From assembly GCF_000337335.1 (NCBI RefSeq), contig NZ_AOJN01000002.1, forward strand, positions 1-32,359: a stretch of DNA of 32,359 nucleotides, given 5' to 3'. Under the pieces are notes generated by a model, which did no database searches, was not told where the DNA came from, and saw only the letters and a list, made by a program, of their open reading frames with translations. Both the position numbers and the translations under genes were made by a program. The DNA comes from Halorubrum distributum JCM 10118. GTDB taxonomy: Archaea > Halobacteriota > Halobacteria > Halobacteriales > Haloferacaceae. Below, piece by piece: positions 6,267 through 29,382 of the stretch (the stretch's first letter is position 1; every line of letters starts with the position of its first letter).

Positions 6267-6572
6267 ATGGGGCGGACGAACCCAACCTACCGGGATGCGC
6301 TCCGGGCCATCGAAGAGCGCTGGGCGGAGTTCCGGCGGGCACTGCGGCGTCGCGACCAGCCGCGCTTCGACCGGCTGTTCGAGTACGCCCGCGAGCACGC
6401 CGACGCGAGCGGACTGTTAAACCACCAGAATCCGCTGCTGCCGGCGCTGTTCAGCATCGATCTTGAACAGGAGGCCCGCCTCAACGATCACGAGGAACGC
6501 CTCGAGGAGCTCGAAGCCGCGGTCGCAGCACGCGATGATCAAGAGAGTGGCCCACCGGACGCGAACCCGTGA
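6267..6572 (+). CDS. small coiled-coil protein between RecA-like gene and polB
   Basis: 101 residues from ATG 6267, chosen because a Shine-Dalgarno sequence AGGAGG (6252-6257) lies ten bases upstream and the preceding stop codon ends at 6264. The N-terminal part (TNPTYRDALRAIEERWAEFR) is helical and basic. The C-terminal part (DLEQEARLNDHEERLEELEA) is a predicted coiled coil. The stop codon overlaps the GTG start of polB in GTGA, so the two are translationally coupled and probably made in proportion. There is no known domain that I recognise; a bridging or subunit role for the polymerase is inference from position. Confidence 0.75.
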   Translation: MGRTNPTYRDALRAIEERWAEFRRALRRRDQPRFDRLFEYAREHADASGLLNHQNPLLPALFSIDLEQEARLNDHEERLEELEAAVAARDDQESGPPDANP

Positions 6573-8740
6573 CGATGCCGTTCAGCATCGACTTCCTGGA
6601 CGACGGCCGCGTCCTCGAGTGGGAGGCAACTGCCGACGGCGCCGTCGCGACCGAGCGCGATGACTACACCCCGCGGTTCTACGTCGCCGCTCGCGACCCA
6701 GCGTCCGACCTCGACCTCACGACACTCCAGTCGGTGTACGACCAGCACCCGGACGTCGTCGTGACCGAGATGGTTGCGCGACGCCCCGGCTTTCGACGAG
6801 ACGAGGAGGCCGTTCTCGCAGTCGACGTTGCCCACATCGATCGCGTCACTCAACTCGCCCGGCAGGCGCGTCAACTGTCGGACTATCCAGTCGGGGATCT
6901 CGCCTGTTTCAACGTGGACTTTTCGCGAGAGTTCCGGTACTGTCTGGAGACCGGCGCCGATCCGACGCCGGTGAGCGAGCTGTCGACGCTCCGGCTCAGT
7001 GTTCCGGTGACCGAAACGAGCAACGACGTCTACGGAGAGTTGACCGTCGCCGGCGACACTGTCACCGGCTCGCCGACGGATCTCCTGACCGCCGTCCAGG
7101 GGGCGCTCGACGCACACGATCCGGATGTCTTGGTCTGCTCGACAAGCGAGATCGTCCCGACCCTGTACGAAATGGCAACTGACGCCGGCGTCGACGACTT
7201 CTCGCTGAGTCGGTGGGCGGACGTCGATTATCAGCAGCTCGCGAGCCGGTCGACGTACTCGAGCTACGGCCGCGTCGGCCACTCCCCGGCGCGGTACAAC
7301 GTGCCCGGCCGGGCGATTATCGACGAGTCGAACACGTTCTTCTACGGGGAGACGAACCTCGACGGCGTCCTCGACCTCGTGTCGCGCTCGAACAAGCCCG
7401 TTCAGGAGCTCGCGTGGGCGTCGATCGGGAACGTGCTCACGGCGATCCAGATCTGCGAGGCCCACGACCGCGACGTCCTCGTGCCGTGGAACTCCTGGCG
7501 ACATGAGTTCTACAAGCCGATGGGGACGCTCCACGACGCCGACCGCGGCGGCTTCATCTTCGCGCCCGAGGTCGGCCTCCACGAGAACGTCCACGAACTC
7601 GACTTCTCCTCGTTGTATCCGAACATCATCTGTACCCGGAACGTCTCGCCGGACGTCATCCGGTGTGAGTGCCACAGCGACCGCGACGACGTCCCCGGCC
7701 TCGGGTACTCGATCTGCGAGGACCGGGGCTACCTCGTCGACGTGCTCCAGCCGATCATCGACGCACGCGACAAGATCAAGGCGGCCATCCGTCGCGAGAA
7801 GGAACGGGACGACCCCGACGAGGACCGGCTGGCGGAACTCGAGGGGCGGTCGGGCGCACTGAAGTGGATCCTCGTCGCCTGCTTCGGCTATCAAGGGTTC
7901 AGCAACGCGAAGTTCGGCCGCATCGAGTGCCACGGAGCAATCAACGCGTTCGCTCGCGAGATTCTGCTGACGGCGAAACAGCGGCTGGAAGCTGGCGGCT
8001 GGCGGGTCGTCCACGGCATCGTCGATTCCATCTGGGTGACGCCGGACCCCGACGTCGACGACGAGAATCGCGAGGACCTCGAGACGCTCGCGACGGCAAT
8101 CACGGATGAGGTCGAGATCCGGCTCGAACACGAAGCCCACTACGACTGGGTGGCGTTCGTGCCGCAGCGCGAGAGCGACGCCGGCGCGCTGACGAAGTAC
8201 TTCGGAAAGGTCGCCGGCGACGACGAGTTCAAGATACGCGGTATCGAAGCTCGGCAGCGCTCAACCCCGCCGTTCATCGAGGCCGTCCAGCGGGACTGTC
8301 TCGACCGGCTCGACGCGACTCGGTCTCCGGATGCCGTCCTCGACTGTCTTCAGGATGCGATCAAGCGGCTCCACGCTGGAACGGTACCGGTCGAGCAGCT
8401 CGTCGAACGGAATCGTGTCTCCAAGCCGCTGGAAGGCTACTCACAGAATACCCAAAACGTGGCCGCGTTGAAACGGGCTCGCGAGCAGGACCTCGCTATC
8501 CACCCGGGACAGGACATCGAGTACGTGGTCGTCGACGACGAGAAATCCTCACGAGATCGAGTCGCGTTAGCCCACGAGGAGATAGCGTCGTACGATGCGT
8601 CTTACTACGAGACGCAACTCGTCAGAGCTGTCGAGAGTGTGCTGGCACCGCTTGGTTGGGATCGGACGGAGATCCGACGTGAGATCGCAGAGACGCGGGT
8701 CCCAGAGTTGTCGGCGTACACGAACCCGGCGAAAAATTAA
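6569..8740 (+). CDS. family B DNA polymerase lacking exonuclease motifs
   Basis: 723 residues from GTG 6569 (ATG 6575 is an alternative). Motif A is LDFSSLYPNII with its catalytic Asp at residue 345. Motif B is ALKWILVACFGYQGFSNAKF around 430-449. Motif C is HGIVDS at 482-487, where the usual YGDTDS has lost its first Asp but keeps the second, which is the metal-binding one in family B enzymes. A Cys-containing insert (CECHSD to SICEDRG) follows motif A. In the N-terminal half neither the Exo I D-x-E nor the Exo II NxxxFD motif is present, so proofreading should be absent. Length is near that of other archaeal PolB enzymes. An active, proofreading-deficient, possibly translesion polymerase is the best reading. 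It ends the three-gene operon; palindrome copy 2 starts within its stop region. Confidence 0.9.
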   Translation: MTMPFSIDFLDDGRVLEWEATADGAVATERDDYTPRFYVAARDPASDLDLTTLQSVYDQHPDVVVTEMVARRPGFRRDEEAVLAVDVAHIDRVTQLARQARQLSDYPVGDLACFNVDFSREFRYCLETGADPTPVSELSTLRLSVPVTETSNDVYGELTVAGDTVTGSPTDLLTAVQGALDAHDPDVLVCSTSEIVPTLYEMATDAGVDDFSLSRWADVDYQQLASRSTYSSYGRVGHSPARYNVPGRAIIDESNTFFYGETNLDGVLDLVSRSNKPVQELAWASIGNVLTAIQICEAHDRDVLVPWNSWRHEFYKPMGTLHDADRGGFIFAPEVGLHENVHELDFSSLYPNIICTRNVSPDVIRCECHSDRDDVPGLGYSICEDRGYLVDVLQPIIDARDKIKAAIRREKERDDPDEDRLAELEGRSGALKWILVACFGYQGFSNAKFGRIECHGAINAFAREILLTAKQRLEAGGWRVVHGIVDSIWVTPDPDVDDENREDLETLATAITDEVEIRLEHEAHYDWVAFVPQRESDAGALTKYFGKVAGDDEFKIRGIEARQRSTPPFIEAVQRDCLDRLDATRSPDAVLDCLQDAIKRLHAGTVPVEQLVERNRVSKPLEGYSQNTQNVAALKRAREQDLAIHPGQDIEYVVVDDEKSSRDRVALAHEEIASYDASYYETQLVRAVESVLAPLGWDRTEIRREIAETRVPELSAYTNPAKN

Positions 8741-13424: not shown

Positions 13425-14771
13425 ATGGCTGACGGCGAGGATCAACAGTCCCTTTCACAGTCCATCAAAGGTCGCCTCCAGGAGGGCGTTCAAAACTCGG
13501 TGTTTCGAGATAAGGGACTTCTTGACCCGGATGCCGTCATCGACGAGGACCGGATCGTTGGGCGTGATGACCAACTGGACGACATCATCACCTATCTCCG
13601 ACCGGCGTTACAGGGGAACCGCCCACCCAATATGCTTCTCTACGGCCCGTCTGGGACGGGGAAGTCACTCATCATCAACGCGGTCTGTCAGCAGGTGCTT
13701 GAACTCGCGAACGCCCAAGACGACCGGTTTGGGGTTATTAAAATCAACTGTCAGACAATCAAGTCCCACGACAGAGCCGTCTATCGTCTCGTGGAAAACG
13801 CTGCCAATGAGGCCGGCGTTGAAATCGGTGTTCCTCAGAGCGGCGTCTCGACCGATCAGAAACTCAACCGGTTCTATGAAGTCTTGAGCAACAACTTCGA
13901 CTCGGTTATTATCATCTTGGATGAGGTTGACCTCTTGGTCGGCCGCCAGCGGGACCCGAACGACGAACCAGCATACTCAAAGCTGCTGTATCAGCTTTCT
14001 CGAGCCTCACAGCTCGGCCAGATCGAGGGACACGTGTCCGTTGCTGCGCTTACAAACGACCCCCGGTTTATGGAGAACCTCGACGGCCGAGCTGAGAGTT
14101 CGTTCAATCCGCAGGATGTCGTTTTCTCCGATTACGATGCGGACCAGCTCCAGTCGATTCTTCGCCGACGTCGCGATGCGTATCGAGAGGATGTGCTTGA
14201 AGATGGTATCATTCCACTTAGCTCAGCGTTTGCCGCGCAGGACCACGGCGACGCGCGGAAAGCAATCGATCTGTTCCGAAAAGCCGGCGAGATAGCGGAC
14301 CGAGAGGGTGAAGAGACGGTTCATGAAGGACACGTTCGCGATGCCCAGAAAGAAGCGGAGCGGGATCGGACGCTGACGCAGATGCAGGGGCTCTCGACCC
14401 AAAAGAAGCTCTCGCTGTACGCAACCGCGATCGTCCCCGTCTACTCACAGCGCAACCTGAACGCTGTTCCCAGCACGGTCGCATATCGTGTGTATCAGTA
14501 CCTTACTGAGCTACTTGACGCTGATACAAAATCACGCGACTCCTATCTCCGCTATATGAGTGAGGCGGAGACGTACAACTTCGTCACCTCAGAAAAACGA
14601 GGCCGCGGCTACGGGAGCGGGGTTCACAAGGAGTACTCGTTCGTTGACGATCCAGGGGTGGTTGCTGAAACCCTCCGGGCTGATATTCGGCTTGAGGAGG
14701 CAGACGATGAGGGTGATCTGATTAAGTCTGTTGTCAACGCACAGATAGATGATTTCTTTGAGGGCAAGTAG
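13425..14771 (+). CDS. Orc1/Cdc6 replication initiator protein
   Basis: 448 residues, the usual length of plasmid or secondary-chromosome Orc1/Cdc6 in haloarchaea. Domains: N-terminal helix with VFRDKGLLDPDAVIDEDRIV and GRDDQLDDI; AAA+ core with Walker A GPSGTGKS (residues 74-81) and Walker B VIIILDEVDLL (~160-170); sensor region AALTNDPRF; lid with HGDARKAIDLFRKAG; C-terminal winged helix (SLYATAIVPVYSQRNLNAVP onwards to RGRGYGSGVHKEYSFVDDPG). It should bind the ORB repeats placed on both sides of the gene and load MCM. The promoter is overlapped by ORB-like repeat 4, consistent with autoregulation. Codon use is slightly less GC-rich than the early part of the window. Confidence 0.95.
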   Translation: MADGEDQQSLSQSIKGRLQEGVQNSVFRDKGLLDPDAVIDEDRIVGRDDQLDDIITYLRPALQGNRPPNMLLYGPSGTGKSLIINAVCQQVLELANAQDDRFGVIKINCQTIKSHDRAVYRLVENAANEAGVEIGVPQSGVSTDQKLNRFYEVLSNNFDSVIIILDEVDLLVGRQRDPNDEPAYSKLLYQLSRASQLGQIEGHVSVAALTNDPRFMENLDGRAESSFNPQDVVFSDYDADQLQSILRRRRDAYREDVLEDGIIPLSSAFAAQDHGDARKAIDLFRKAGEIADREGEETVHEGHVRDAQKEAERDRTLTQMQGLSTQKKLSLYATAIVPVYSQRNLNAVPSTVAYRVYQYLTELLDADTKSRDSYLRYMSEAETYNFVTSEKRGRGYGSGVHKEYSFVDDPGVVAETLRADIRLEEADDEGDLIKSVVNAQIDDFFEGK

Positions 14772-14877: not shown

Positions 14878-14901
14878 ATTTCATTTCGCATACGGGGTGT
14901 C
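14878..14901 (+). repeat. ORB-like repeat 6 (CATACGGGGT variant)
   Basis: Contains TTCATTTCGCATACGGGG followed by TGTC. The CATACGGGGT core (14889-14898) differs from CACACGGGG in the other copies and is shared only with repeat 7 on the far side of the TnpB gene. Confidence 0.75.
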
Positions 14902-14945
14902 CCTCGGTCCCAGACTCGGAACTATCTCGGAGTGTGTCGTCCGTA

Positions 14946-14953
14946 GGTATTTA
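14946..14953 (+). promoter_or_regulatory. TATA box of tnpB
   Basis: GGTATTTAAGAG places TATTTAAG about 30-37 bases upstream of the ATG at 14984, supporting that start over the upstream in-frame codon at 14897. Confidence 0.5.
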
Positions 14954-14983
14954 AGAGATTACGGTTATACCACAGGGCGTCGG

Positions 14984-16282
14984 ATGGCCGACACCGCTAC
15001 CGTCACGAAAACGCTTGAGGCCACTCTTGTTGATCCAACTGCGCACAAAGAGCGGAAACTTCGTGAAACGGTAGCGACATATCAGGACGCGCTCGAAACA
15101 GCCTTCGATAGTGAAGCGAGTACGCAGTCAGAAATCAACGATCTCGTTACCGGATACGATTTGACTTCGTACGCAAAAGATGCCCTCAAACAATACGTCC
15201 CCCAACTTGAGTACAGCTACGATGCGGATGAATTAGCAGAAGATCATCCTGTTCGCTTCACTCACCGTGGGCTACAGATTGATCACTCCTCAACACGGGC
15301 CCACGAGTTCTGCTGGCGCGTTCCTCAGGCAGGTTACGGGACTGGCTTCTGGATACCCCTGCGGATCAACCCTGATCAGAAACCACTCTGGTTTGATCTC
15401 TTGGACGGAACTGTATCAGCTGGTGAATTTCGACTCACTCAGCATCGAGCATCATGGACGTTACACGTTACTGTGAAGTATTCGGTTGAAGACCCGGAGA
15501 TCCCGGATGACCCGACGCATATCGGCTTCGACGTCGGTGAATCGACGTTGCTCACGGGCTGTGCCCTACAACACGACGCACCGACAGATCCATTCTTGTT
15601 TGATGGCAGTCGGGCACGACGCATACGGAAGGAGATGTACACGACTCTCAAGCGCTTACAGGAGCGAGATTCTACAGAATGGCGTATCGAGTGGCGCTTC
15701 GAACATTTCCAGAACGCCCTCACTGATATCGTGGAAAAATCAACCACCCGGGCCGTCGAATATGCCTGTCAGTTCGATAGTCCCGTCATCGTCCTTGAAG
15801 ATCTATCGTGTATCCAAGAGCAGCTGGACCACGGTACTCATATGAACCGACGATTACACTCTTGGGCCTTTGCTCAGCTAATCAGTCGGCTTGAAGACAA
15901 GGCGCTCGAAGCGAGCGTCCCAGTTGAGTTCGTACCACCTGCGTACACGTCTAAGACGTGCCATGAGTGTGGACATATCGGATCTCGGTCCTCACAAGCC
16001 GAGTTCAAATGTACCAATCCCGACTGCTGGGTAACTGAATATCAGGCAGATATCAATGCAGCGGCAAACATCGCCCATCGTGCCGATCCGTGGGGAGAGA
16101 GTGTGCCTTGGAAAACGGGACACAATGACTCCCCGCGGAATGGGTGCCCACGTGACAGGGCCTTGGAACGCCGAGAGAAGAATAGGAACAACCGACAGAT
16201 GACGCTCTCGGAGTATAGTTCCGAAACCTCCTCATCTAATGAGACCTCCCCTGTGGGGAGTACCACAGGAGATAGCAAATGA
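14984..16282 (+). CDS. tnpB: TnpB, RNA-guided nuclease of an IS1341-type element
   Basis: 432 residues from ATG 14984 (MADTATVTKTLEATL), preferred because a TATA box lies about 35 bases upstream. The RuvC-like catalytic residues appear present: Asp in HIGFDVGEST, Glu in VIVLEDLSCIQE, and the last Asp in ADINAAANIAHR. The zinc ribbon is CHECGHIGS and CTNPDCW. TnpB proteins are omega-RNA-guided DNA nucleases that cut the empty donor or target site. The C-terminal tail after residue ~360 is hydrophilic and Ser/Thr-rich. All key residues are intact, so the protein may be active. No transposase tnpA is nearby, so mobility would depend on another element. Confidence 0.92.
   Translation: MADTATVTKTLEATLVDPTAHKERKLRETVATYQDALETAFDSEASTQSEINDLVTGYDLTSYAKDALKQYVPQLEYSYDADELAEDHPVRFTHRGLQIDHSSTRAHEFCWRVPQAGYGTGFWIPLRINPDQKPLWFDLLDGTVSAGEFRLTQHRASWTLHVTVKYSVEDPEIPDDPTHIGFDVGESTLLTGCALQHDAPTDPFLFDGSRARRIRKEMYTTLKRLQERDSTEWRIEWRFEHFQNALTDIVEKSTTRAVEYACQFDSPVIVLEDLSCIQEQLDHGTHMNRRLHSWAFAQLISRLEDKALEASVPVEFVPPAYTSKTCHECGHIGSRSSQAEFKCTNPDCWVTEYQADINAAANIAHRADPWGESVPWKTGHNDSPRNGCPRDRALERREKNRNNRQMTLSEYSSETSSSNETSPVGSTTGDSK
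16250..16269 (+). ncRNA. candidate omega-RNA 3' hairpin of the TnpB element
   Basis: CCTGTGG and CCACAGG form a perfect stem with a 6-base loop, overlapping the last codons of tnpB. In IS200/IS605 elements the omega-RNA comes from the 3' part of tnpB and the right end, and the guide is the sequence immediately after the element. Here the following sequence leads into the ORB cluster. The RNA ends cannot be determined from sequence. Confidence 0.4.
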
Positions 16283-18752: not shown

Positions 18753-19502
18753 TTATTTTACGGTTTCGCCGCCATCAACCGGGAGTGACTGTCCGGTAAT
18801 ATACGATGCTTCATCGGAGCACAGCCAAACGATGACGCTGGCAACCTCATCTGGGGACGCAGCCCGCCTCATCGGAACTTCTCCGATAATCGAACTGCGT
18901 TCTGCTTCAGACATCGACTCCAAGGCTGGCGTCTCTACAATCGTCGGACAGACTGCATTGACGCGAACGTCATCGTTAGCAGTTTCTAAGGCCGCTGTCC
19001 GTGTCAGACCGACTACACCGTGTTTGCTGGCGGCGTACGGTGCCCGACCGGGGCTCCCACGGAGTCCGGCCTTCGAGGAGACGTTGACGATGGCGCCGCC
19101 GCCGGTGTCGTATAATGCGGGGAGTTCGTATTTCATACCGGCCCAGACGCCAGTCTGATTGACATCGAGGACGCGGTCCCACTCTTCCTCGTCGATTTCT
19201 GGGACTTGGGCTGGTGTGTTCCCGATCGCGGCGTTGTTGACGGCGTAGTCGAGTCGCCCGTGTTCGTTGAGCGTGGTGTCCACGAGAGCTTCAATTGACT
19301 CGCTGCGACTGGTGTCGACCTCGATGAAGGTTACATTGCCATCATTTTCTTTGATTTGTTCAGCGGTCTCTTGCCCAGCTTCCGTGTCGATATCGGCGGC
19401 GACGACTGTTGCTCCTTCGGCGGCGAGTCGGTTGGCGGTTGCGCGGCCGATGCCGGAGCCAGCGCCGGTTACAAGTGCGACGGAATCCTCAAAGTCGTAC
19501 AT
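18753..19502 (-). CDS. SDR-family NAD(P)-dependent oxidoreductase
   Basis: 249 residues from ATG 19502 (a TTG at 19505 is the alternative). The Rossmann motif TGAGSGIG is near residues 12-19, Asp in VVAADIDTEAG suggests NAD preference, NNAA occurs in LDYAVNNAAIG, the catalytic Ser is in NVSSKAG, the Tyr and Lys are in YAASKHG, and the C-terminal signature is ITGQSLPVDGG. It is a classical short-chain dehydrogenase/reductase of normal length, probably acting on an alcohol or ketone; the substrate is not readable. It diverges from the squalene-synthase-family gene at 19675 with about 170 bases between, so the two may share control, but a functional link is not shown. Confidence 0.92.
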   Translation of the reverse strand: MYDFEDSVALVTGAGSGIGRATANRLAAEGATVVAADIDTEAGQETAEQIKENDGNVTFIEVDTSRSESIEALVDTTLNEHGRLDYAVNNAAIGNTPAQVPEIDEEEWDRVLDVNQTGVWAGMKYELPALYDTGGGAIVNVSSKAGLRGSPGRAPYAASKHGVVGLTRTAALETANDDVRVNAVCPTIVETPALESMSEAERSSIIGEVPMRRAASPDEVASVIVWLCSDEASYITGQSLPVDGGETVK

Positions 19503-19513
19503 CAACTACAAAT

Positions 19514-19529
19514 ACTGAATATTTAGTCA
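19514..19529. promoter_or_regulatory. TGA-N8-TCA-type palindrome at the SDR promoter
   Basis: ACTGAATATTTAGTCA contains TGAATATTTAGTCA (19516-19529), which matches 11 of 14 positions of the palindrome upstream of the gene at 24422. It overlaps the AT-rich core promoter of the SDR gene. The weak match makes a shared regulator only possible. Confidence 0.3.
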
Positions 19530-19608: not shown

Positions 19609-19618
19609 TTAAATATTA
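19609..19618 (+). promoter_or_regulatory. TATA box of the squalene-synthase-family gene
   Basis: TTTAAATATT lies about 57-66 bases before ATG 19675 and 15-24 bases before an in-frame GTG at 19633. It supports transcription beginning near 19635. Confidence 0.5.
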
Positions 19619-19674
19619 ATTGTTTGTTCATAGTGGACGAGTTCAAACGGCTGAGCAAACACCACTCAAAATAT

Positions 19675-20742
19675 ATGACGCGACATCAACCATCCCCGTC
19701 CAAGCCCCCGCTTGCGTACTGCCATGACGCTGTCCAAGACGTATCGCGTACGTTCGCTCTTACCATCGATGCACTCGACCCACCACTGGCCGACCAGATT
19801 TGTGTCGGCTACCTGCTCTGTCGAATTCCGGATACGATCGAGGATTCAACCCACATTTCGACGGAGACCCAACAAAGGCTTCTTAGGACCTACTACGCGA
19901 GCCTCGACCCTGAATCACCAACGTCGATAGAAGTGTTCACGCGTCAAGCACGACAGTACATATCAACTCAGTCTCCTGTAGCGGACTGGGAGCTTGTTGG
20001 GAACACTCCGACCGTTATGGCCGCCTTCGAACAGTTCTCACAAGACACACAGGAGGCAATGCGACCTCCCATCCGTGAGATGATCACAGGGATGATTCGG
20101 TTCACCGGGCGATACGCAGACGAGCCGGGGATTCGAATCCAAACGCTCATTGAACTCAGAAGCTATTGTCACTACGTCGCTGGTACTGTCGGGACATTAA
20201 TCACGAACCTCCTCGCAAAGCAACCACTCACGACTTCCCGCGAGGAGGCCCTCCGAAGGAATGCTGAACATTTCGGTCGACTCCTACAACTGGTGAATAT
20301 TGCAAAAGACGTCCACGAGGACTACGTAACCGAAAACAATGTGTATCTCCCAAGTGAGTGGCTAGCAGCCGAAGGAATTCCCCAAGATCAAATCATTCAC
20401 ACAGACTACCAAGAGGGAGCTATATCGGTGCTTTCACGAGTCCTTGAGCAGGCCAACCAACACCTCGACGCTGCTCAATCCTACATCGAAAAAATGCCAC
20501 TAGGCAACGGAAACACCGTCGTCGCATGGGCAGTTCCATATCTCTTAGCCGTCGGCACTCTTCGAGAACTCCGTACAAACCCCGGAACCGCATTTGCTCC
20601 GGAGAGTGTGAAAGTATCCCGTACAGAGGTTCGGACCATCCTGAATGCGGTGTCTGCTACTGATCGGCAGTACCTCACTTCTCTCCGAGAACAGGTTGCT
20701 GACAACCCGCTTGAAGAGCTACCACCTCGTCTCGCTCCCTGA
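19675..20742 (+). CDS. squalene/phytoene synthase family protein
   Basis: 355 residues from ATG 19675; GTG 19633 is an alternative closer to the TATA box, but 19675 gives the usual distance to the conserved YCHDAVQDVSRTFALTI start of the domain. The first Asp-rich motif is DTIED (residues 53-57) in YLLCRIPDTIEDS. The second is NIAKDVHEDY, matching the NIxxDxxED motif of squalene synthases. Other conserved elements are RSYCHYVAGTVG and NNVYLP. The enzyme should condense two prenyl diphosphates head-to-head (farnesyl to squalene is typical of this haloarchaeal branch). Both metal-binding motifs are intact. Many haloarchaea also keep a chromosomal homologue, so this may be an accessory copy. GC is moderate. 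Confidence 0.88.
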   Translation: MTRHQPSPSKPPLAYCHDAVQDVSRTFALTIDALDPPLADQICVGYLLCRIPDTIEDSTHISTETQQRLLRTYYASLDPESPTSIEVFTRQARQYISTQSPVADWELVGNTPTVMAAFEQFSQDTQEAMRPPIREMITGMIRFTGRYADEPGIRIQTLIELRSYCHYVAGTVGTLITNLLAKQPLTTSREEALRRNAEHFGRLLQLVNIAKDVHEDYVTENNVYLPSEWLAAEGIPQDQIIHTDYQEGAISVLSRVLEQANQHLDAAQSYIEKMPLGNGNTVVAWAVPYLLAVGTLRELRTNPGTAFAPESVKVSRTEVRTILNAVSATDRQYLTSLREQVADNPLEELPPRLAP

Positions 20743-20843: not shown

Positions 20844-21452
20844 TTATTCGTTTTTGGTTGAAATACGGTCGATGTGAGCATCGATCGTGGCTTTCAATGG
20901 TTCAATCGACTGCTCTGGGTTGTACACAGTGAGCCGTCGGGCACGGATTCCAATAAGTAGTGAAAGCAGTGTCTCTGCTTCTACCTCAACGTCGACGTCG
21001 ACAAACTGGTTGGATTCGATACCACGACGAAGAATGTCCTCGAGAACCATCTTCACCCTTTCTTCAACTTCCAGGTATTGCTCACGAACAGCCTCGTCGT
21101 GGGGTGCATTCATTCGAAGTTCGAACATCGACAACATCAGTCGATAGGGTTCTTCGTTAACTGTCGTTGGGAGGAGAAGTTCGATTAGATGATCGAGTTC
21201 CTCGCGAGGTGAAGATCCTTCTTCGGGGAGGATAGCAAGAAATCCTCCGAGAATGTACTTGAGGAAATCAACGAGAAGATCGTCACGACCGTCGTAGTGG
21301 TAGTAAATAAGGGCCTTACTGCGGTCAAATTCATCGGCGATGTGCTGGATGGTGAGGTCGCTGTAGCCGTGTTTCTTCACGGCGATGTGGGTGGCTTCCA
21401 TGATATCCCGTTTTCCGGGATCCATGTCGTCGCCGTAGTTTTCGAAACTCAT
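20844..21452 (-). CDS. TetR/AcrR-family transcriptional regulator
   Basis: 202 residues from ATG 21452. The N-terminal TetR helix-turn-helix is MEATHIAVKKHGYSDLTIQH, then IADEFDRSKALIYYHYDGRD and DLLVDFLKYIL. The C-terminal part is an all-helical ligand-binding and dimerisation domain (EEPYRLMLSMFELRMNAPHD, later EVEAETLLSLLIGIRARRLT). It is divergent from the membrane-associated ArsR-like gene at 21665. TetR regulators often control a neighbouring efflux or enzyme gene, but no transporter is adjacent here. Ligand unknown. Confidence 0.9.
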   Translation of the reverse strand: MSFENYGDDMDPGKRDIMEATHIAVKKHGYSDLTIQHIADEFDRSKALIYYHYDGRDDLLVDFLKYILGGFLAILPEEGSSPREELDHLIELLLPTTVNEEPYRLMLSMFELRMNAPHDEAVREQYLEVEERVKMVLEDILRRGIESNQFVDVDVEVEAETLLSLLIGIRARRLTVYNPEQSIEPLKATIDAHIDRISTKNE

Positions 21453-21664
21453 TAGATGTACCTATTGTTTCAAGCGGCCTGTCCCTTTTGATTGTTCTGC
21501 GAATTGGTGTGTCTTGTTGTCTAGAGGAACCGATGGGATCCCCATGTTGAGAGAAGGAAATCGGTACGTCGACCCTGTTCCTTGGTTATACGATGGTGAA
21601 GCAGATTCAAATGTTTCTTTGAGTTTTCCCTAATCATATATTTGTATAGATAGTCACAACTACT

Positions 21665-22375: not shown

Positions 22376-23341
22376 ATGAAACGTCGAATGTTTCTGGCAA
22401 GTGCTGGGATTGGTTTCTCGACCGCCGCAGCAGGGTGTACTTCCCAAGCAGTGTCGAGTCGATCGCCTGAGGCAGACACAGAAAAGACAGCAAACACATC
22501 TGAGAGCACACAAAACGAGACTGTTCAAAAGTCGACCCAGACACTAATCAAAGCCGGTGACACCGCTGAGCGGACTATCGGGACCAGGTCCCTTGACACA
22601 CGTGGCCTTAGAAAGCCTCACCATGTCGCATTCCGGAATCCGACAGAGGAGACCCATCACGGAACGATTACGATTTCGACTGCGAGCGAAACAGTGTTTG
22701 AGGAATCGATAGAGCTCGAAGCGAACACGAGTCTGATTGCGTCGCTTTCTGATCTCAATCTATATACTGTTCGGGTAGCCGTTCCTACGTTAGATGCGAC
22801 CAAGGAGGTAACCGTTGAACCCGATCAGTTTACCTGTAACGTGACTAAGACAACGATCAGCGTTCGTGAAGATAGGACACTCGGCTCGACGAGTGTGTCG
22901 ACGCGTATGGCGTGTCCCGGTGTTGTGTCCAAATCAGTGCCTGCCGACGAACGTGTGTTGCACACGCTCGGTGAGGATTCGACTTCCACAGATACCAAGC
23001 GAGGTAGCCACACGCTCGTACTCCGGAACTCGTCGGACGAAACGTGGACGGCCCGAATGCTCGTTGAGAACGATTCGACAGCGCAATTTGACGGGGTCTA
23101 TACGGTCGGACCTGCGGGGGCGGTACTGATTACTCTCGGTGAGCGCGGAACGTACACGTTATCGGTGGATGTGCTCGGAACGGAGAGAACAATTACTGAG
23201 CAAGCAACGCCTGAAAACTTCGATTGTAACCAGTCATCAACGCAGGTCAATATTAGCGCCGGGGGAGAACTCACTGGGAACACCCTTTCAACGCTCATGG
23301 CTTGTAGCACCGAGGTGAACTCAACGAACGAATCATCGTAG
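22376..23341 (+). CDS. lipoprotein with two tandem Ig-like repeats
   Basis: 321 residues from ATG 22376; an in-frame GTG at 22370 is less likely. The signal is MKRRMFLASAGIGFSTAAAGC, a Tat-like KRR plus lipobox with Cys21. A Ser/Thr/Glu-rich linker leads to two internally similar domains: repeat A (PHHVAFRNPTEETHHGTITI to TFLS-like SVSTRMAC) and repeat B (SHTLVLRNSSDETWTARMLV to NTLSTLMAC). Both share an x-V/L-x-x-RN-x-(S/T)-x-E-T start, a CN motif in FTCN/FDCN, and a terminal MAC. The paired Cys in each repeat could form a disulfide outside the cell. Function is unknown. Confidence 0.82.
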   Translation: MKRRMFLASAGIGFSTAAAGCTSQAVSSRSPEADTEKTANTSESTQNETVQKSTQTLIKAGDTAERTIGTRSLDTRGLRKPHHVAFRNPTEETHHGTITISTASETVFEESIELEANTSLIASLSDLNLYTVRVAVPTLDATKEVTVEPDQFTCNVTKTTISVREDRTLGSTSVSTRMACPGVVSKSVPADERVLHTLGEDSTSTDTKRGSHTLVLRNSSDETWTARMLVENDSTAQFDGVYTVGPAGAVLITLGERGTYTLSVDVLGTERTITEQATPENFDCNQSSTQVNISAGGELTGNTLSTLMACSTEVNSTNESS

Positions 23342-23611: not shown

Positions 23612-23836
23612 TCACAAGGTCATCAGGTACGCAACCCAAACTAAGACTGAGGCGGCGCCAATGCCCCCCATCAGGTAAGTGTACACCTTTCGTGTTTTGC
23701 CATGGATTTTGTAGCTGCTATAAATCGAAATAAGCCCTGCTAATGGAACAAGAACGACAGAAATGATTGTACTAACTGCCCCAAGTATGAGGTACTGACG
23801 TGTATTCGTCTGGTCTGCTGTGGCTGTTTCTGACAT
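23612..23836 (-). CDS. small two-TM membrane protein
   Basis: 74 residues from ATG 23836. A short polar N-terminus (MSETATADQTNTRQ) precedes a hydrophobic helix YLILGAVSTIISVVLVPLAG, a basic loop SSYKIHGKTRKVYTY and a second helix LMGGIGAASVLVWVAYLMTL. It is a small integral membrane protein of unknown function, of a type common in haloarchaea. The promoter is well formed: the TATA-like TTTAAATA (minus strand, 23867-23874) and a perfect palindrome lie between the TATA box and the expected transcription start. Confidence 0.8.
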   Translation of the reverse strand: MSETATADQTNTRQYLILGAVSTIISVVLVPLAGLISIYSSYKIHGKTRKVYTYLMGGIGAASVLVWVAYLMTL

Positions 23837-23849
23837 TGCCCTACCTGTG

Positions 23850-23867
23850 ACTGAATATCTATTCAGT
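23850..23867. promoter_or_regulatory. 18-bp perfect palindrome, operator of the small membrane protein
   Basis: ACTGAATA-TC-TATTCAGT sits directly downstream of the TATA box (23867-23874) and 14 bases before the minus-strand ATG at 23836. That is a typical repressor position. It contains the TGA-N8-TCA form also seen at 19516, 24366 and 25366. Confidence 0.65.
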
Positions 23868-23874
23868 ATTTAAA

Positions 23875-24365
23875 CTGGTGGTTTTTCAATAGATATCTCT
23901 GGCGTACAAAACAATTGAGCTATCTTCTAGGGCGGGGATTCCGAGAGCCAAGGACAAAGGTTGGGCCGAGTGCGGTTGCCCGACGGTCGAGTCGATGCTG
24001 GCTTTCCGAGCTAGATGATACGACTACTTCCACTATACTGCTTTCTCGGATTCGAGTCATTGAGGTCATCTTCGATCTAGAAAATGAAACCAATTCGGGC
24101 TACTTCCTCACCCACCTCGGTGCCAATATCTATCTGACCGGGTGTCGCTATCTGGGCCACCCAAATCAATATGATAGAGGAATGCTCCTTGTCACACCGC
24201 AACACGAACTAATCACCACTCCGTTCTAGCCATTAGCCCAGCTATTATTGACATAATAGGGGCTGTGTCGCGATCTATGTGAAATTGTTCCCACCACACC
24301 AAATAGATCCCGACATCACAGTTCCACCAAGCACAGTACGGCACCAAAGCACAAAAAATATATAC
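23875..24365. other. non-coding or decayed region
   Basis: The largest open frame (23915-24229) starts with TTG and reads LSYLLGRGFREPRTKVGPSA and onwards. It lacks a promoter, has uneven codon use and matches no family I know. The region may be the remains of an insertion element, since GGGCGGGGATTCC (23932-23944) resembles sequences seen at insertion-sequence ends in haloarchaea; this is only an impression. Confidence 0.35.
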
Positions 24366-24379
24366 TGACAATATAGTCA
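24366..24379. promoter_or_regulatory. TGACAATATAGTCA palindrome upstream of the polyprenyl-synthetase-like gene
   Basis: The 14-base near-palindrome starts 56 bases before ATG 24422 and ends 15 bases before the TATA-like AAAAATATAC (about 24394-24402). A 13/14 match occurs at nearly the same distance upstream of htpX. The position just upstream of the core promoter suits an activator. Confidence 0.6.
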
Positions 24380-24421
24380 ATTTGCTGCCCTCAAAAATAT
24401 ACGTTAAGAGATTAAAACAAA

Positions 24422-25237
24422 ATGACTACGTTATCAACTCTCGATGAGCGGCGAAACACAATCAATCAACGTCTGGAAACAGCGTTAGGAAGCAGTGATG
24501 ACCATTCAGTCGTTCTAGCGAACTCAGCTATTAACTCGTGTTCAGACCGATGGTACGGCCAATTGGTTGCTCTCTCCTACGCTACAATTGCTGATCAACC
24601 AATTACTGATGTAGTATTATCGGCATCGGCCGCAACGGAGTTACTGCGTGGATACTGTCAGCTGCGAAGTGAACTGCTCTATCAACTTCACACCAGTCAA
24701 CGCAATTCTCTGACGAGAGACCCAGTGAAAATGCTGCTGGCTGGTGATTATCTCAACTCTACAGCTTACACAGTCTTCTTTGAGGCAGGTAATCAGCAAT
24801 TCGAAAAAGCTCTTGAGGCTCTTATTGAGACATCAAGATCTCTGATTGATTCATTCAACGCTACGCGAATCAAATCATTTGATACGTATACATTCTTAGA
24901 TAAGCTCGTTGGTATATTAGGTGAAGGAGCAGTAACTATTGCAGCCAATCTCACAGGAAGCAACACTGTACTTCGTAACGAGTTCACAAACTTGGGCCGA
25001 GCCCTTAGCTCGGCATATCATGCTTTTAATATTCTTGAACTGGAGGATCGCAGGTCTGTAGGACCTATTGACCATTCACAATACGAGGAATCTGACCTTT
25101 GTCAGTACGGCGCGAGACACTTTCGAGGAGCTATGTACACTCTCAACGAACTTCAGGAAGTTGTAGATGTTGAACCTCTTCTAGAGCTAATTGACGCTCA
25201 TTTTGGGGGGAAGATGGGGTATAAGAAGTGGATTTGA
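24422..25237 (+). CDS. degenerate polyprenyl synthetase (isoprenyl diphosphate synthase fold), catalytic Asp motifs lost
   Basis: 271 residues from ATG 24422, with a TATA box about 25 bases upstream. The all-helical pattern follows trans-prenyltransferases: SAATELLRGYCQLRSELLYQ at the place of helix D, MLLAGDYLNSTAYTVFFEAG matching the conserved AGD-x-L-x-S-x-A helix after the first Asp motif, and FLDKLVGILGEGAVTIAANL then LGRALSSAYHAFNILELEDR matching the KT/GxxFQ-DD region. The first DDxxD is replaced by LRSELLYQ and the second by NILELED, so synthesis is unlikely. It could bind prenyl chains or regulate another synthase. The gene is AT-rich (about 44% GC), unlike most neighbours. Confidence 0.65.
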   Translation: MTTLSTLDERRNTINQRLETALGSSDDHSVVLANSAINSCSDRWYGQLVALSYATIADQPITDVVLSASAATELLRGYCQLRSELLYQLHTSQRNSLTRDPVKMLLAGDYLNSTAYTVFFEAGNQQFEKALEALIETSRSLIDSFNATRIKSFDTYTFLDKLVGILGEGAVTIAANLTGSNTVLRNEFTNLGRALSSAYHAFNILELEDRRSVGPIDHSQYEESDLCQYGARHFRGAMYTLNELQEVVDVEPLLELIDAHFGGKMGYKKWI

Positions 25238-25365
25238 TATCTATTCTCTCCCGAAGGACGGTTTAGCTTTGTAACGTCCAGAATCCAGTGGCTAGCTACC
25301 AGCTACCAAAAACGAACTACAGTAGAATGTACATACTGGCTTCAGATTTTGCTGCTCATCCCAGC

Positions 25366-25379
25366 TAACTATATTGTCA
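25366..25379. promoter_or_regulatory. TAACTATATTGTCA palindrome upstream of htpX
   Basis: The reverse complement of the 24366 element with one mismatch. It starts 57 bases before ATG 25423 and ends 15 bases before the TATA-like TTTTATAC (25394-25401), the same geometry as at 24366. Confidence 0.6.
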
Positions 25380-25393
25380 ATATATAACCGGGG

Positions 25394-25401
25394 TTTTATA
25401 C
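25394..25401 (+). promoter_or_regulatory. TATA box of htpX
   Basis: TTTTATAC lies 22-29 bases upstream of ATG 25423, so the mRNA is probably leaderless. Confidence 0.55.
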
Positions 25402-25422
25402 TATGGCCACATACCGCTCGTT

Positions 25423-26331
25423 ATGCGACATCTCGGACTAAAAATACGGATGGCTATCGTCGGCAGTATCCTTCTCGCGTTCTATTCCGGAGCCGTCGCT
25501 GTAGCGTGGTACTTCTTCGGGCAAAGCCAGAGCATCCTCGCGCTCGCCATCGTTGGCAGTATTCTGCTCGTGGGCGTCCAGTACAAGGTTGGAAAGTGGG
25601 CCGCGCTCAAGAGCGTCGGAGCTGAGGATATGGATAAACGACAATATCCGCAGATTTACCTGTTCGTTGAGAAGGTCTGCCATGAAAAGGATCTGAATAT
25701 GCCGAATTTAAAGATCGCGGACATGGGCGTTCCAAACGCGTTCGCGGTTGGCCGCCGCGGCAGCGGGACCGTCGTTGTCTCCCGTGAACTCATTCAACTG
25801 CTCGACCGGGACGAACTTGAGGGCGTCCTGGCGCACGAACTCGCACATATTGACAACCGCGACGTCATTACAATGCAAATTGGCCAAGGCATCGCCTCGA
25901 TCGTCAGCATCGTCGCACAGTACATTGTGCTGTTCACTGGCGACAACGACCTCGCGGATTTCTTCCTTGCCATCGTAGTCGGGAATCTCGTCCAGTTCTT
26001 CGTGATGGTATTTGTGCTCGCCATCAGCCGACACCGCGAGTACGTCGCGGACGCTGACGCCCGCCGCGCAATCGGCTCCGGGGATCCGCTCGTTCGCGCA
26101 CTCAAGAAGATCCACCAAGGGAATCAGCATGCCTCTCGGTCTACAGATCAGCGTACTGGTGAACCAGTAAATCAGCGTAACAGCAGACATGGGAAACCGC
26201 GCCCCCCTGCGCAGGGTTCCAACCAACAAGTAGCTACTCTCTGTATCTCTAGCCCTGATCGCAACTTTATACAGCGGGCAATGTCCACGCATCCACCGAT
26301 GGAGAAGCGCATCCAGCGGCTCCAATCATAG
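25423..26331 (+). CDS. htpX: HtpX-like M48 family membrane metalloprotease
   Basis: 302 residues. Two N-terminal membrane helices (MAIVGSILLAFYSGAVAVAW and SILALAIVGSILLVGVQYKV) precede the M48 domain with HELAH (His138, Glu139, His142) as zinc site and catalytic Glu, a further hydrophobic hairpin (IASIVSIVAQYIVLF and FFLAIVVGNLVQFFVMVFVL), and the third ligand Glu in HREYVADADA. The C-terminal part is Gln/Arg-rich with STHPPMEKRIQRLQ. The family degrades misfolded membrane proteins at the cytoplasmic face. All catalytic residues are present. It shares an upstream palindrome with the polyprenyl-synthetase-like gene, so the two are probably co-regulated although not in one operon. Confidence 0.93.
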   Translation: MRHLGLKIRMAIVGSILLAFYSGAVAVAWYFFGQSQSILALAIVGSILLVGVQYKVGKWAALKSVGAEDMDKRQYPQIYLFVEKVCHEKDLNMPNLKIADMGVPNAFAVGRRGSGTVVVSRELIQLLDRDELEGVLAHELAHIDNRDVITMQIGQGIASIVSIVAQYIVLFTGDNDLADFFLAIVVGNLVQFFVMVFVLAISRHREYVADADARRAIGSGDPLVRALKKIHQGNQHASRSTDQRTGEPVNQRNSRHGKPRPPAQGSNQQVATLCISSPDRNFIQRAMSTHPPMEKRIQRLQS

Positions 26332-26360
26332 ATCCCTTTGTCTGAGATTGTGACTGACCT

Positions 26361-27668
26361 ATGCCCAAAACGACTTCTGACTCAAACAACATCATGATTC
26401 CTGATAGATCTATCCCTGTGTTCGTCAAATCGAGGGCGAACACGCTCCTGTCTTTGCTCTTTACTCTCGTGCTAGGGGGGACAGCCTATACAGGATTCGT
26501 GACTGGTCGATATGAATCGGTCCTGTTCAGCTTAGTAGCGATCGCGATTGTCATCGTCCCAGCTGTAATAGCCCGTGACCCGACAGTGACGCCCCCATGG
26601 TACTTTCTGCTCCTAATCTGCCTTCCCATTCTCTGGGACGTCAGGACGGGTTCCTCGCTTCAACTAGGGGTCGTCCCAAGCCTCTCTCTTGCGACCCTTG
26701 GTCTTCTGTTGATGGTCGAAATCCACTACCTGACGACGCTCCGACTGGCGCCGTGGTTCACCATCGTACTCACCGGTATTTTCACACTCGCGATGGCGGC
26801 AGTCCTCAATATCGTCCGCTGGATCTCCGATACTCTGTTTGGGACGACGTTTCTGCTCAACGGGCGCACGCAGGATGCGATCAATACGGCGGTGATGATC
26901 GAGTTTGTCGCCGCGGCTATTGCCGGAGTCATCGCTGGCGGCATCTTCTATCTACACTTTCAACGGCCGTCTGTTCAGACTGGTAGTCGATTACAGGCTG
27001 ACTCGGCAACACCCGGTACGAAAATAAACGCTCAATCGGCCGTCCTGAGCGACAGGTTAGGCATCTCACCACAGCGGCAACGACAAGCCGTCCGCATGAT
27101 GCAAGCAGGGTTAGCGCTAGTATTTGGATACGGACTCTGGACAGTCCAAGTTCCGCTCCTGATAAATTCGGGGGTTGCATTGGTCATTACGTTTGTCCCG
27201 GCAGTGATAGAACGGGACTACGGTATCCCGATCGAACCAGCACTCGCTCTTTGGCTAACTGGCGCAGTTTTCCTCCACGTTCTCGGAACTGTCGGGCTCT
27301 ACGGCTTGATACCGGCATGGGATTCACTTACGCATACACTTTCGGCGACAGTCGTTGCCGCAGCAGGGTACACGTTCCTCAGGACAATCCACCTCCACGC
27401 CTCATCGATTCACTTCCCTCCTTGGGCGATGTTCGTGTTCACCCTCATGGTCGTCCTCGCGACCGGCGTAGTCTGGGAGGTTCTCGAGTTTGTCCTCGAT
27501 CGAAGTGCGCTCCTCTTTGGGGCTGACCCAGTGCTCGCGCAGCACGGAATTGACGACACGATTATCGACTTGATCTTTAATGGGATCGGTTCGATACTTG
27601 TCGCAATGTGGGGTACGGTGTATCTCACGACAGTGTCAAAGCGTCTCGCTAGTCAGCTCACACAGTAA
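26361..27668 (+). CDS. DUF2238-like multi-pass membrane protein, two similar halves
   Basis: 435 residues from ATG 26361, 30 bases after htpX, so possibly in one transcript. About ten hydrophobic segments are visible. The C-terminal half has LIPAWDSLTHTLSATVVAAA, then GVVWEVLEFVLDRSALLFGA and DDTIIDLIFNGIGSILVAMW, matching the DUF2238/YjdF pattern of W-D-x-x-x-H, G-x-x-W-E-x-x-E-F and D-T-x-x-D-L. The N-terminal half repeats parts of it in degenerate form (the AVIARDPTVTPPWYFLLLIC and AVIERDYGIPIEPALALWLT segments correspond), suggesting duplication. Function is unknown; conserved Asp, His and Glu in membrane helices suggest transport or a membrane enzyme. Confidence 0.75.
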   Translation: MPKTTSDSNNIMIPDRSIPVFVKSRANTLLSLLFTLVLGGTAYTGFVTGRYESVLFSLVAIAIVIVPAVIARDPTVTPPWYFLLLICLPILWDVRTGSSLQLGVVPSLSLATLGLLLMVEIHYLTTLRLAPWFTIVLTGIFTLAMAAVLNIVRWISDTLFGTTFLLNGRTQDAINTAVMIEFVAAAIAGVIAGGIFYLHFQRPSVQTGSRLQADSATPGTKINAQSAVLSDRLGISPQRQRQAVRMMQAGLALVFGYGLWTVQVPLLINSGVALVITFVPAVIERDYGIPIEPALALWLTGAVFLHVLGTVGLYGLIPAWDSLTHTLSATVVAAAGYTFLRTIHLHASSIHFPPWAMFVFTLMVVLATGVVWEVLEFVLDRSALLFGADPVLAQHGIDDTIIDLIFNGIGSILVAMWGTVYLTTVSKRLASQLTQ

Positions 27669-27687: not shown

Positions 27688-28203
27688 CTATTCTTCACCA
27701 CGACTCGAAACCAGATATTCAGTGAACCGGAACCTAGTCACGAACGTCACCGAGTCCCCGTATCCTTCACTCGTGAGCACGGTTTCGGCCCCCTCGCCGG
27801 CCGCGATATTCGTCGTGTTGATGTAGACCTCGGCCGCCGACCCCGCACTGAGATGCTGGGCAGCGAGGGCGGCGAGGGCGGCGTCCGCCCGCTCGACCTC
27901 GTCGGCAGGGCGGTCGTCGGCGTTCGCGATGTACCGCTGGACACCGTCAATCACCCGTGAGACGACAGGCTTGGAAAACACCAACGGTGTCGCGATCGTC
28001 GCACAGCGTTCGTCTATCGCGGCGTCAACGGGCGGGCCTTCGACGGGGCGGCGCATGAGTCGTGACCGGACCGCGGTCAACGATAGACTTGAACTGCCGC
28101 GGATGGCGACACTGTCCACATTCTCAAGACAGATCTCGCTGTCGTCATGCGAGCAATCATCGATTAGTGGGTCGACGAAGAAGTGGATAATCTCGCCGAC
28201 CAT
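27688..28203 (-). CDS. hypothetical protein, possible PIN-like fold
   Basis: 171 residues from ATG 28203 (MVGEIIHFFVDPLIDDCSHD); the codon at 28242 is the alternative. The C-terminal half, with VERADAALAALAAQHLSAGS then AEVYINTTNIAAGEGAETVL and GDSVTFVTRFRFTEYLV, resembles haloarchaeal PIN-like proteins with an alpha helix before a T-x-N/D-x-A motif; catalytic Asp residues are not all identifiable, so this is tentative. It converges on the DUF2238-like gene and diverges from the sufS stub, suggesting a chromosomal origin of this segment. Confidence 0.65.
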   Translation of the reverse strand: MVGEIIHFFVDPLIDDCSHDDSEICLENVDSVAIRGSSSLSLTAVRSRLMRRPVEGPPVDAAIDERCATIATPLVFSKPVVSRVIDGVQRYIANADDRPADEVERADAALAALAAQHLSAGSAAEVYINTTNIAAGEGAETVLTSEGYGDSVTFVTRFRFTEYLVSSRGEE

Positions 28204-28282
28204 GTGAGCGCGGTCAACTACGTCATTGAGTGGCAATCTCACCTATGGTTTATCTAATCAGCATCAGAGTCTTGGTAGTACC

Positions 28283-28380
28283 ATGAGTTTTGATGCCGAA
28301 GCAGTACGTGCTGACTTCTCTATCCTCGACCGGCGCGTGAACGGCTATCCGCTCACCTACCTCGACAACGCCGCGACCAC
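28283..28380 (+). pseudogene. sufS: 5' stub of sufS (cysteine desulfurase), truncated
   Basis: From ATG 28283 the frame reads [20 protein letters not shown], then [13 protein letters not shown], the N-terminus typical of SufS-type cysteine desulfurases. After NAATT (around 28378) the similarity stops and the frame ends within 5 codons (TAG at about 28398-28400). The promoter (GTTTATCTA, ~28246-28254) and start are intact, but the catalytic domain is missing. The cut coincides with the 3' end of the minus-strand gene at 28357, so a recombination replaced the rest of sufS. Confidence 0.85.
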
Positions 28381-29382
28381 GCACGCCGGCGGGAGGTAGA
28401 CGCTCTGCTCGCCGGCGATCTCCTCCAGGTTGTTCCGGTGACGGTGGTTGAAGTAGCACTCGTAGCTACAGTATCCACAGATTGCGCCGGTATCGTACTC
28501 GGCGACGTACGGACCGCGGCGAGTTCGCCAGACGTTCGTCCCGCACTCGGTACAGGCAGCGTTCTCGAGATCGGCAGGACCTGGTCCCTCGTACTCGACG
28601 TCGAGCCCCTCGTCTTGCGGTGTCGTTTCGGGCCAGATTTCGTGGGTCCTCCAAAACTCACGGACGCGAGCGAGGCTGTGGCACACCGTCTTTCGCACGG
28701 TGACGTGGTCGGCGTCGCGACCGCTGTCGTCCCAGCCGTCGGCCGTCCAGAACTCACCGAACTGCGCGCCGCGATACAGCCCGTTCCAGTCGACGCCGAC
28801 GATGTCGGCTGGTGGCTCGTCCGTGAGTGTCGGTCTGGTCAGCTGCCGAATGGCATCGAGCTGCTTGGGCGGACTCCCGCCGAGGATGTGGACGCGCCGC
28901 CCTCTCCAATCGGCAGGGTCGGAGAAATCGTGGGCCAGGCGGTCGGCGTATCCTCGTGAATACCCGAGAACGAGGGTCTCGGGAATCGCGTCGATCACCG
29001 CCCGCGACTTCGGAACGACGATGAGCTCGGCCTCTGGATAGCTCGCTTGGATCTCACGAGCAGCAGCGACGTGGGCGTCGACGTCGTCGATTTCGTCGAT
29101 GTCCCCGATGACCCCGACCTCTGGTTCGTGCTCGAAGAAGCGGTCGACGAACCGCTCCAGGTCGGGATTGCGGAAGTCGTTATCGAGCATCCCCACAGGA
29201 ATTTCGAGGTTCAGGTACTGGTCTACCTGATACCCACAGTCTTCTCGAAACCCGGGAAGAAATCCGAGGGCCAACGCATCAGCGACGAATGGAACTCGAT
29301 GGAGGAACGCCACATGGTCCGCTTGTCTGGCGGCAGCGATGTCGCTAGCCGTGCTGGAGTCTGGACTCAAATCGAGGGACAT
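28357..29382 (-). CDS. DUF6610-like plasmid protein with C-terminal zinc-finger, 3' end altered by recombination
   Basis: 341 residues from ATG 29382 ([20 protein letters not shown]); the frame extends to 29466, inside palindrome copy 4. Conserved blocks include [60 protein letters not shown] and [20 protein letters not shown], which I associate with the haloarchaeal family DUF6610. The layout resembles a TIM-barrel-like enzyme, but no function is known. Two CxxC pairs near the C-terminus (CTECG and CGYCSYEC) could bind zinc. The last residues VVAALSR and the stop are antisense sufS sequence, so the native C-terminus was lost or replaced. The function of the trimmed protein is uncertain. Confidence 0.75.

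Follow-up and report, generated by a model that had tools for sequence, protein, structure and literature searches.

The window, that is, the whole 32,359-nucleotide stretch of Halorubrum distributum JCM 10118 DNA analysed here, is one haloarchaeal contig with a GC content of 56.6%. The genes and sites that concern us are listed below; "prenyl" refers to the gene of the 271-amino acid protein and to its relatives.

18753-19505, minus strand: SDR-family oxidoreductase gene (SDR; adh_short_C2, 8e-68), 90% identical to its Halorubrum tebenquichense counterpart.
19516-19529: operator-like site of SDR, TGACTAAATATTCA on the minus strand, conserved in H. tebenquichense and before SDR in the locus of another genus (L141).
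19617-19630: weak, tentative operator-like site of SQS, TAATTGTTTGTTCA directly after TTTAAATAT; not significant in the half-site test.
19675-20742, plus strand: squalene/phytoene-synthase family gene (SQS; PF00494, 6e-56) with both Asp motifs, DTIED and DVHED; its start codon was picked by reference to the H. tebenquichense orthologue.
20844-21452, minus strand: TetR-family regulator (TetR_N, 31.1 bits, cut-off 24), the candidate repressor of the sites.
23612-23836, minus strand: P74, a predicted membrane protein of 74 amino acids, from a family present in 65 of 392 genomes.
23850-23867: P74 palindrome, operator-like, ACTGAATATCTATTCAGT, immediately following the TATA box TTTAAATA; identical in H. 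tebenquichense, with equivalents before P74 in many genera.
24357-24364, plus strand: TATA-like stretch immediately before the prenyl palindrome, conserved in H. tebenquichense.
24366-24379: first palindrome (prenyl), TGACAATATAGTCA; TGACATTACAGTCA in H. tebenquichense.
24422-25237, plus strand: predicted pseudo-prenyl-synthase of 271 amino acids, with a dead trans-isoprenyl diphosphate synthase fold.
25366-25379: second palindrome (HtpX), TAACTATATTGTCA; TGACTATATTATCA in H. tebenquichense.
25394-25400, plus strand: TATA-like box of HtpX, TTTTATA.
25423-26331, plus strand: HtpX-type membrane metalloprotease (Peptidase_M48, 2e-31; HELAH).
26361-27668, plus strand: P435, a predicted membrane protein of 435 amino acids, linked to HtpX in H. 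tebenquichense and with relatives in a second cluster on contig C1.

Elsewhere in the window, two Orc1/Cdc6-like ORFs, one family-B DNA-polymerase-like ORF and one TnpB-like ORF (1758-2786, 6569-8740, 13425-14771 and 14897-16282; translations judged by eye) suggest plasmid or mobile DNA. Relatives of the prenyl gene were found on megaplasmids too. The fold, the lost active site, the selection, the shared sites and the neighbourhoods described below were all obtained by computation.

The nearest relative of the 271-amino acid protein is that of H. tebenquichense, a member of the same genus (76% identity). When the protein alone was searched, no match was obtained in Pfam or NCBIfam, and a weak one to polyprenyl synthetase in the PDB. 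The family alignment comprised 18 sequences from 11 named genera. The family profile matched GGPP synthase (1wy0) in the PDB at 5.7e-10, together with many other prenyl synthases, and PF00348 was detected in 10 of the 18 relatives, but not in the window protein by itself. The AlphaFold2 model (pLDDT 83.5, pTM 0.87) matched FPP and GGPP synthases along the whole length (Foldseek TM ∼0.67, Z up to 25.8), and the matches included non-catalytic plant subunits (structures 3qkc, 5xn6 and 3kra). Structure prediction, with a Z of ∼25 to FPP synthase, thus bears out the prenyltransferase fold that an earlier, sequence-only reading of this DNA had proposed.

The active site was compared by aligning 17 family members with the two genuine synthases of the same genome (contigs C18 and C39). 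In the window protein, 15 of the 16 catalytic positions are changed. All three Asp columns of the first Asp-rich motif, DDxxD, are lost in 17/17 relatives. In the second motif the first Asp is absent from 17/17 and the second from 16/17; the third is still there in some relatives and is a Glu in the window protein. The alignment therefore confirms the loss of both Asp-rich motifs, which had been read from the single sequence. Among the IPP/diphosphate-binding residues, the Lys and the last Arg of GGKRxRP, KT and a later Lys are gone in all 17, and one Arg is retained in 16. A near-invariant D-R-W-Y-G (D-x-W-Y-G in its general form) sits in place of GGKRxRP. The best-conserved stretch of the family, LLAGDYL, lies at the position of the helix that forms the dimer in active prenyl synthases. 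Relative to the sister species H. tebenquichense dN/dS is 0.26, which argues that this pseudo-enzyme is being maintained and that its gene is not decaying. From the model and the alignment, the 271-amino acid protein is very probably a pseudo-enzyme of the trans-isoprenyl-diphosphate-synthase fold, devoid of the capacity to bind Mg and diphosphate. The strongly conserved new D-x-W-Y-G motif at the former IPP-binding motif, and the purifying selection, would also fit an enzyme of a different, unrecognised reaction that dispenses with diphosphate-Mg binding. We regard this as very unlikely, because no new catalytic-type residue cluster was identified in the protein and a cofactor domain was not found.

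The protein thus has the descent and the fold of the trans-isoprenyl diphosphate synthases (GGPP/FPP synthase, PF00348), but has lost their active site. The same fold (Z 23-25) is seen in the non-catalytic subunits of heteromeric trans-prenyl synthases (plant GPPS small subunit 3qkc, OsGRP 5xn6 and mint GPPS), which likewise are without the catalytic Asp motifs. Plant SSU proteins are reported to steer GGPP synthase to shorter products (PMC11974751). Such plant non-catalytic subunits (3qkc, 5xn6 and 3kra) offer a precedent for a non-catalytic partner role. Unlike the plant-type GPPS/GGPPS small subunits, however, the 271-amino acid protein is archaeal, has no CxxxC interaction motif in its sequence and is tied to TetR and MATE genes.

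When 392 genomes of the order were searched with a profile, strong, near full-length relatives were found in ∼47 of them; the weaker matches were mostly ORFs of ∼350 amino acids, a size typical of genuine synthases. In a phylum-wide search (295 genomes) the family matches were confined to the order. Among 33 loci, the neighbours were TetR regulators (30 loci), a MATE pump (23, in 21 of them directly upstream) and a zinc-ribbon small membrane protein (19), followed by P74 (8), SDR (6), SQS (4) and HtpX (3). The commonest arrangement is TetR3 facing TetR2-MATE-prenyl, and the annotation of a Natrinema plasmid gives TetR, MATE and polyprenyl synthetase in that order. The zinc-ribbon protein, which stands with a TetR or prenyl gene at, e.g., L072:6735-7166, L088:3074-3514 and L030:4819-5271, looks like a further member of the module.

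The full window arrangement recurs in H. tebenquichense, and parts of it are found elsewhere: prenyl/P74/TetR/SDR in L141, SQS/TetR/P74 in L112 and L115-L117, and TetR-P74-SQS in L148 and L149. On contig C1 of the same genome (L029, L030), MATE, prenyl, P74, SQS and HtpX are found again, together with several TetR genes, in a paralogous second cluster. The association with a squalene-synthase-family gene, first noticed in the window, therefore recurs in the second cluster and in other genomes. In total, the genome has four genes of the SQS/phytoene-synthase family. The P74 family keeps company with TetR, SQS, SDR, MATE and prenyl; P74 and prenyl co-occur in 11 genomes against 3.6 expected (hypergeometric 2e-4, kinship ignored), and orthologues of the window TetR (58-81%) adjoin P74 in other genomes. 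The larger structure would be a haloarchaeal module linked to TetR genes and built around a dead prenyl synthase that annotation has misnamed.

These neighbourhoods raise the question of whether the pseudo-enzyme serves the MATE pump, its old prenyl cavity holding a hydrophobic compound or isoprenoid and handing it to the pump, or buffering the TetR ligand. The prenyl gene lies within a few bases after MATE in 21 of the 33 loci, TetR plus MATE is a usual efflux arrangement, and the fold is retained with the diphosphate-binding residues all gone. The idea is nevertheless on the unlikely side, since the protein occurs without a nearby MATE gene in the window form, L139, L141 and L145, and co-regulation with squalene-synthase genes suits isoprenoids better. 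It is also unlikely that the haloarchaeal dead prenyl synthases with the DxWYG signature serve a TetR-controlled system of MATE efflux and membrane stress as an accessory subunit, or as one that holds a ligand, the fold having been recruited to drug efflux or stress sensing. MATE efflux in Halorubrum amylolyticum is backed by dye accumulation and efflux-inhibitor tests (PMC11721430); the likeness to the present case lies in pump class and genus, and the main text of that paper does not mention polyprenyl genes or operons.

The two palindromes, TGACAATATAGTCA and TAACTATATTGTCA, are where the sequence-only reading had placed them. The reverse complement of TAACTATATTGTCA is TGACAATATAGTTA, with one mismatch to TGACAATATAGTCA. 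They start 56 and 57 nt ahead of the ATG codons at 24422 and 25423, and the TATA-like boxes AAAATATA (prenyl) and TTTTATA (HtpX) come 14-15 nt after them. The identical geometry attributed to the pair is real in the window; in H. tebenquichense, however, the prenyl site is ∼140 nt from the ATG, with different intervening DNA, and the HtpX palindrome has kept its spacing. The longest inverted pair of the region is in fact 19 nt (24359-24377 and 25368-25386). The TATATA next to the first palindrome thus belongs to the repeat, whose second copy is oppositely oriented. Since this pair stands on both sides of the prenyl gene, and the HtpX-P435 block next to it has the opposite orientation in H. tebenquichense, the palindromes might mark the termini of a small mobile or invertible element, or the places at which it recombines. 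We find this highly improbable: the inverted block does not end at the repeat pair, and in another species and another genus the sites still precede the same genes.

With up to three mismatches allowed, the palindrome pattern matched 9 places in the window against 1.6 expected (0/100 shuffles). Genome-wide, the pattern of the first reading matched 45 places and its reversed control 38, so the signal is local. At least four clear sites are present in the window, and not two, the further ones being those of SDR (19516-19529) and P74 (23850-23867); the SDR, P74, prenyl and HtpX sites are all retained in H. tebenquichense. A palindrome upstream of orthologues is therefore present in that species, and equivalents stand ahead of the same genes in another genus. 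An ArsR site at 21643 (TGTATAGATAGTCA) was dropped, as it is not conserved in H. tebenquichense, and the C1 matches at 23135, 26687 and 34411 were left uncounted, as they lie 3′ of a gene, within a TetR gene or ∼600 nt upstream of the HtpX paralogue. In the half-site test the window TetR gene had no operator-like site of its own. The palindrome is no private signal of prenyl and HtpX; it is one of a family of operator-like sites.

This family lies mostly over or just behind the TATA box, and it is also found before SDR, P74, P74-SQS and TetR-MATE-prenyl promoters. In L141, from a different genus, the sites are TGAATTGATATTCA at P74, TGACAAAATATTCA at SDR and TGAATTTTTGTTCA on the side of the zinc-ribbon/prenyl unit. 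A consensus built from these three sites alone, TGAMNWNNWNKTCA, matched 28 places in the whole genome of the window, three of which are exactly the SDR, P74 and prenyl sites, within 5 kb (Poisson P 1.2e-5 for 5 kb, 0.003 for the whole window). This recovery is the cleanest independent test of shared operators. In the MATE form, ACTRAY-type palindromes such as ACTAACTAGTTAGT were found ∼30 nt ahead of the start in 12/12 TetR2 promoters tested. The C1 P74-SQS promoter has the same site as the C1 TetR2-MATE-prenyl promoter, and the genome has no further strong match of this type; hence the pseudo-enzyme and the squalene-synthase gene share an operator in the C1 cluster. In the window, the link between prenyl and SQS runs via P74, SDR and the adjacent TetR, the SQS site itself being weak. 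The half-sites of both operator types are alike (ACTRAM), with a spacing of 6 or 2. TetR3 genes of L072, L073, L074, L075, L078 and L084 have a TGAC-N6-GTCA site of their own ∼50 nt ahead of the start; its sequence is roughly TGACGRRNNGGTCA, and it may represent a third class of operator.

At P74, SDR and MATE-type promoters the sites cover the TATA box or follow it directly, which suits a repressor. The prenyl and HtpX palindromes stand upstream of the nearest TATA box, ending 14-15 nt ahead of AAAATATA and TTTTATA, as would be expected if an activator bound them. Such a protein is distinctly unlikely, because the SDR, P74 and MATE-type sites are over or behind the TATA box, and the prenyl site itself also comes after another TATA stretch, the one retained in H. 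tebenquichense. A repressor is the reading that we retain, and the adjacent TetR (20844-21452) is its likely source: its TetR_N HTH domain scores above the cut-off, and conserved palindromes occupy the core promoters of its neighbours SDR, P74 and prenyl. An archaeal precedent for a local TetR repressor with few sites is FadRSa of the Sulfolobus lipid gene cluster (PMC6449355), likewise a TetR-family protein with few semi-palindromic sites in one gene cluster. The genes are different, most FadRSa sites are ≥130 bp upstream whereas the present ones are at the core promoter, and binding is here predicted.

The second gene is, as first read, a membrane protease, an M48/HtpX protein of 302 amino acids with HEXXH as HELAH. 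It scored 109.7 bits with Peptidase_M48 (cut-off 20.3), and the NCBIfam HtpX equivalog models matched below their cut-offs. P435 showed a weak DUF2238 resemblance and nothing more. Relative to prenyl, the HtpX-P435 block (25310-27664) has the opposite orientation in H. tebenquichense (L024 10898-8545), and its promoter has moved along with it. A stretch of a SufS-like neighbour at 28155-28387 accompanies the inverted block, and H. tebenquichense HtpX (L071 12272-13179) reads in two frames, from a frameshift or an assembly error. The HtpX site has the same position and spacing in H. tebenquichense, yet it is off-consensus and the weakest member of the family; no significant site was detected at the HtpX relatives on C1, in L125 and in L139. 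The special pairing of prenyl and HtpX suggested earlier is not supported in that form: HtpX is near the prenyl gene in 3/33 loci, its site is the weakest, and the main partners are TetR regulators and the MATE pump. As a neighbour of P74 in another genome (L125), HtpX may belong loosely to the module.

We consider it reasonably probable that the palindromes are operators of a local TetR repressor over a small regulon, and that the 271-amino acid protein is a non-catalytic partner in an inducible membrane module. The repressor, most likely the 20844-21452 product, would act locally on palindromic operators, its regulon within the same 9 kb comprising SDR, P74 and the pseudo-prenyl-synthase, HtpX more loosely, and perhaps SQS. 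This regulon would be the Halorubrum variant, with its genes rearranged, of an accessory module of haloarchaea that most often takes the form of TetR facing TetR-MATE-pseudo-prenyl-synthase. We infer TetR binding, repression, a hydrophobic inducer and the partner role from sequence: a hydrophobic membrane-active compound would bind the TetR protein and lift repression, and derepression would yield small membrane proteins, an additional enzyme of the squalene-synthase type, in the common form the efflux pump, and in some cases HtpX. The 271-amino acid protein may then dock on a resident prenyl synthase or hold a prenyl chain. That it thereby shifts isoprenoid flow to apolar membrane isoprenoids is a tentative possibility, and flux steering may not be its general role, since SQS genes are absent within 6 kb of most MATE-prenyl loci. 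Squalane lowers proton permeability and increases solute leakage in archaeal model membranes (PMC8200183), and squalene is widespread among archaea (PMC6770870), which makes an inducible squalene-synthase gene in a membrane response plausible. A membrane-stress module is plausible, and envelope or lipid stress may be its purpose.

Searches of the open literature yielded no description of this gene combination. Public annotation names these genes polyprenyl synthetases, so pathway reconstructions include an enzyme that is very probably unable to work. If the module is real, then: i) isoprenoid metabolism, efflux and perhaps membrane quality control would be tied to local repressors in haloarchaea, ii) regulated accessory squalene-synthase genes would be indicated, and iii) the module would offer a compact way of testing how archaea adjust apolar membrane isoprenoids.
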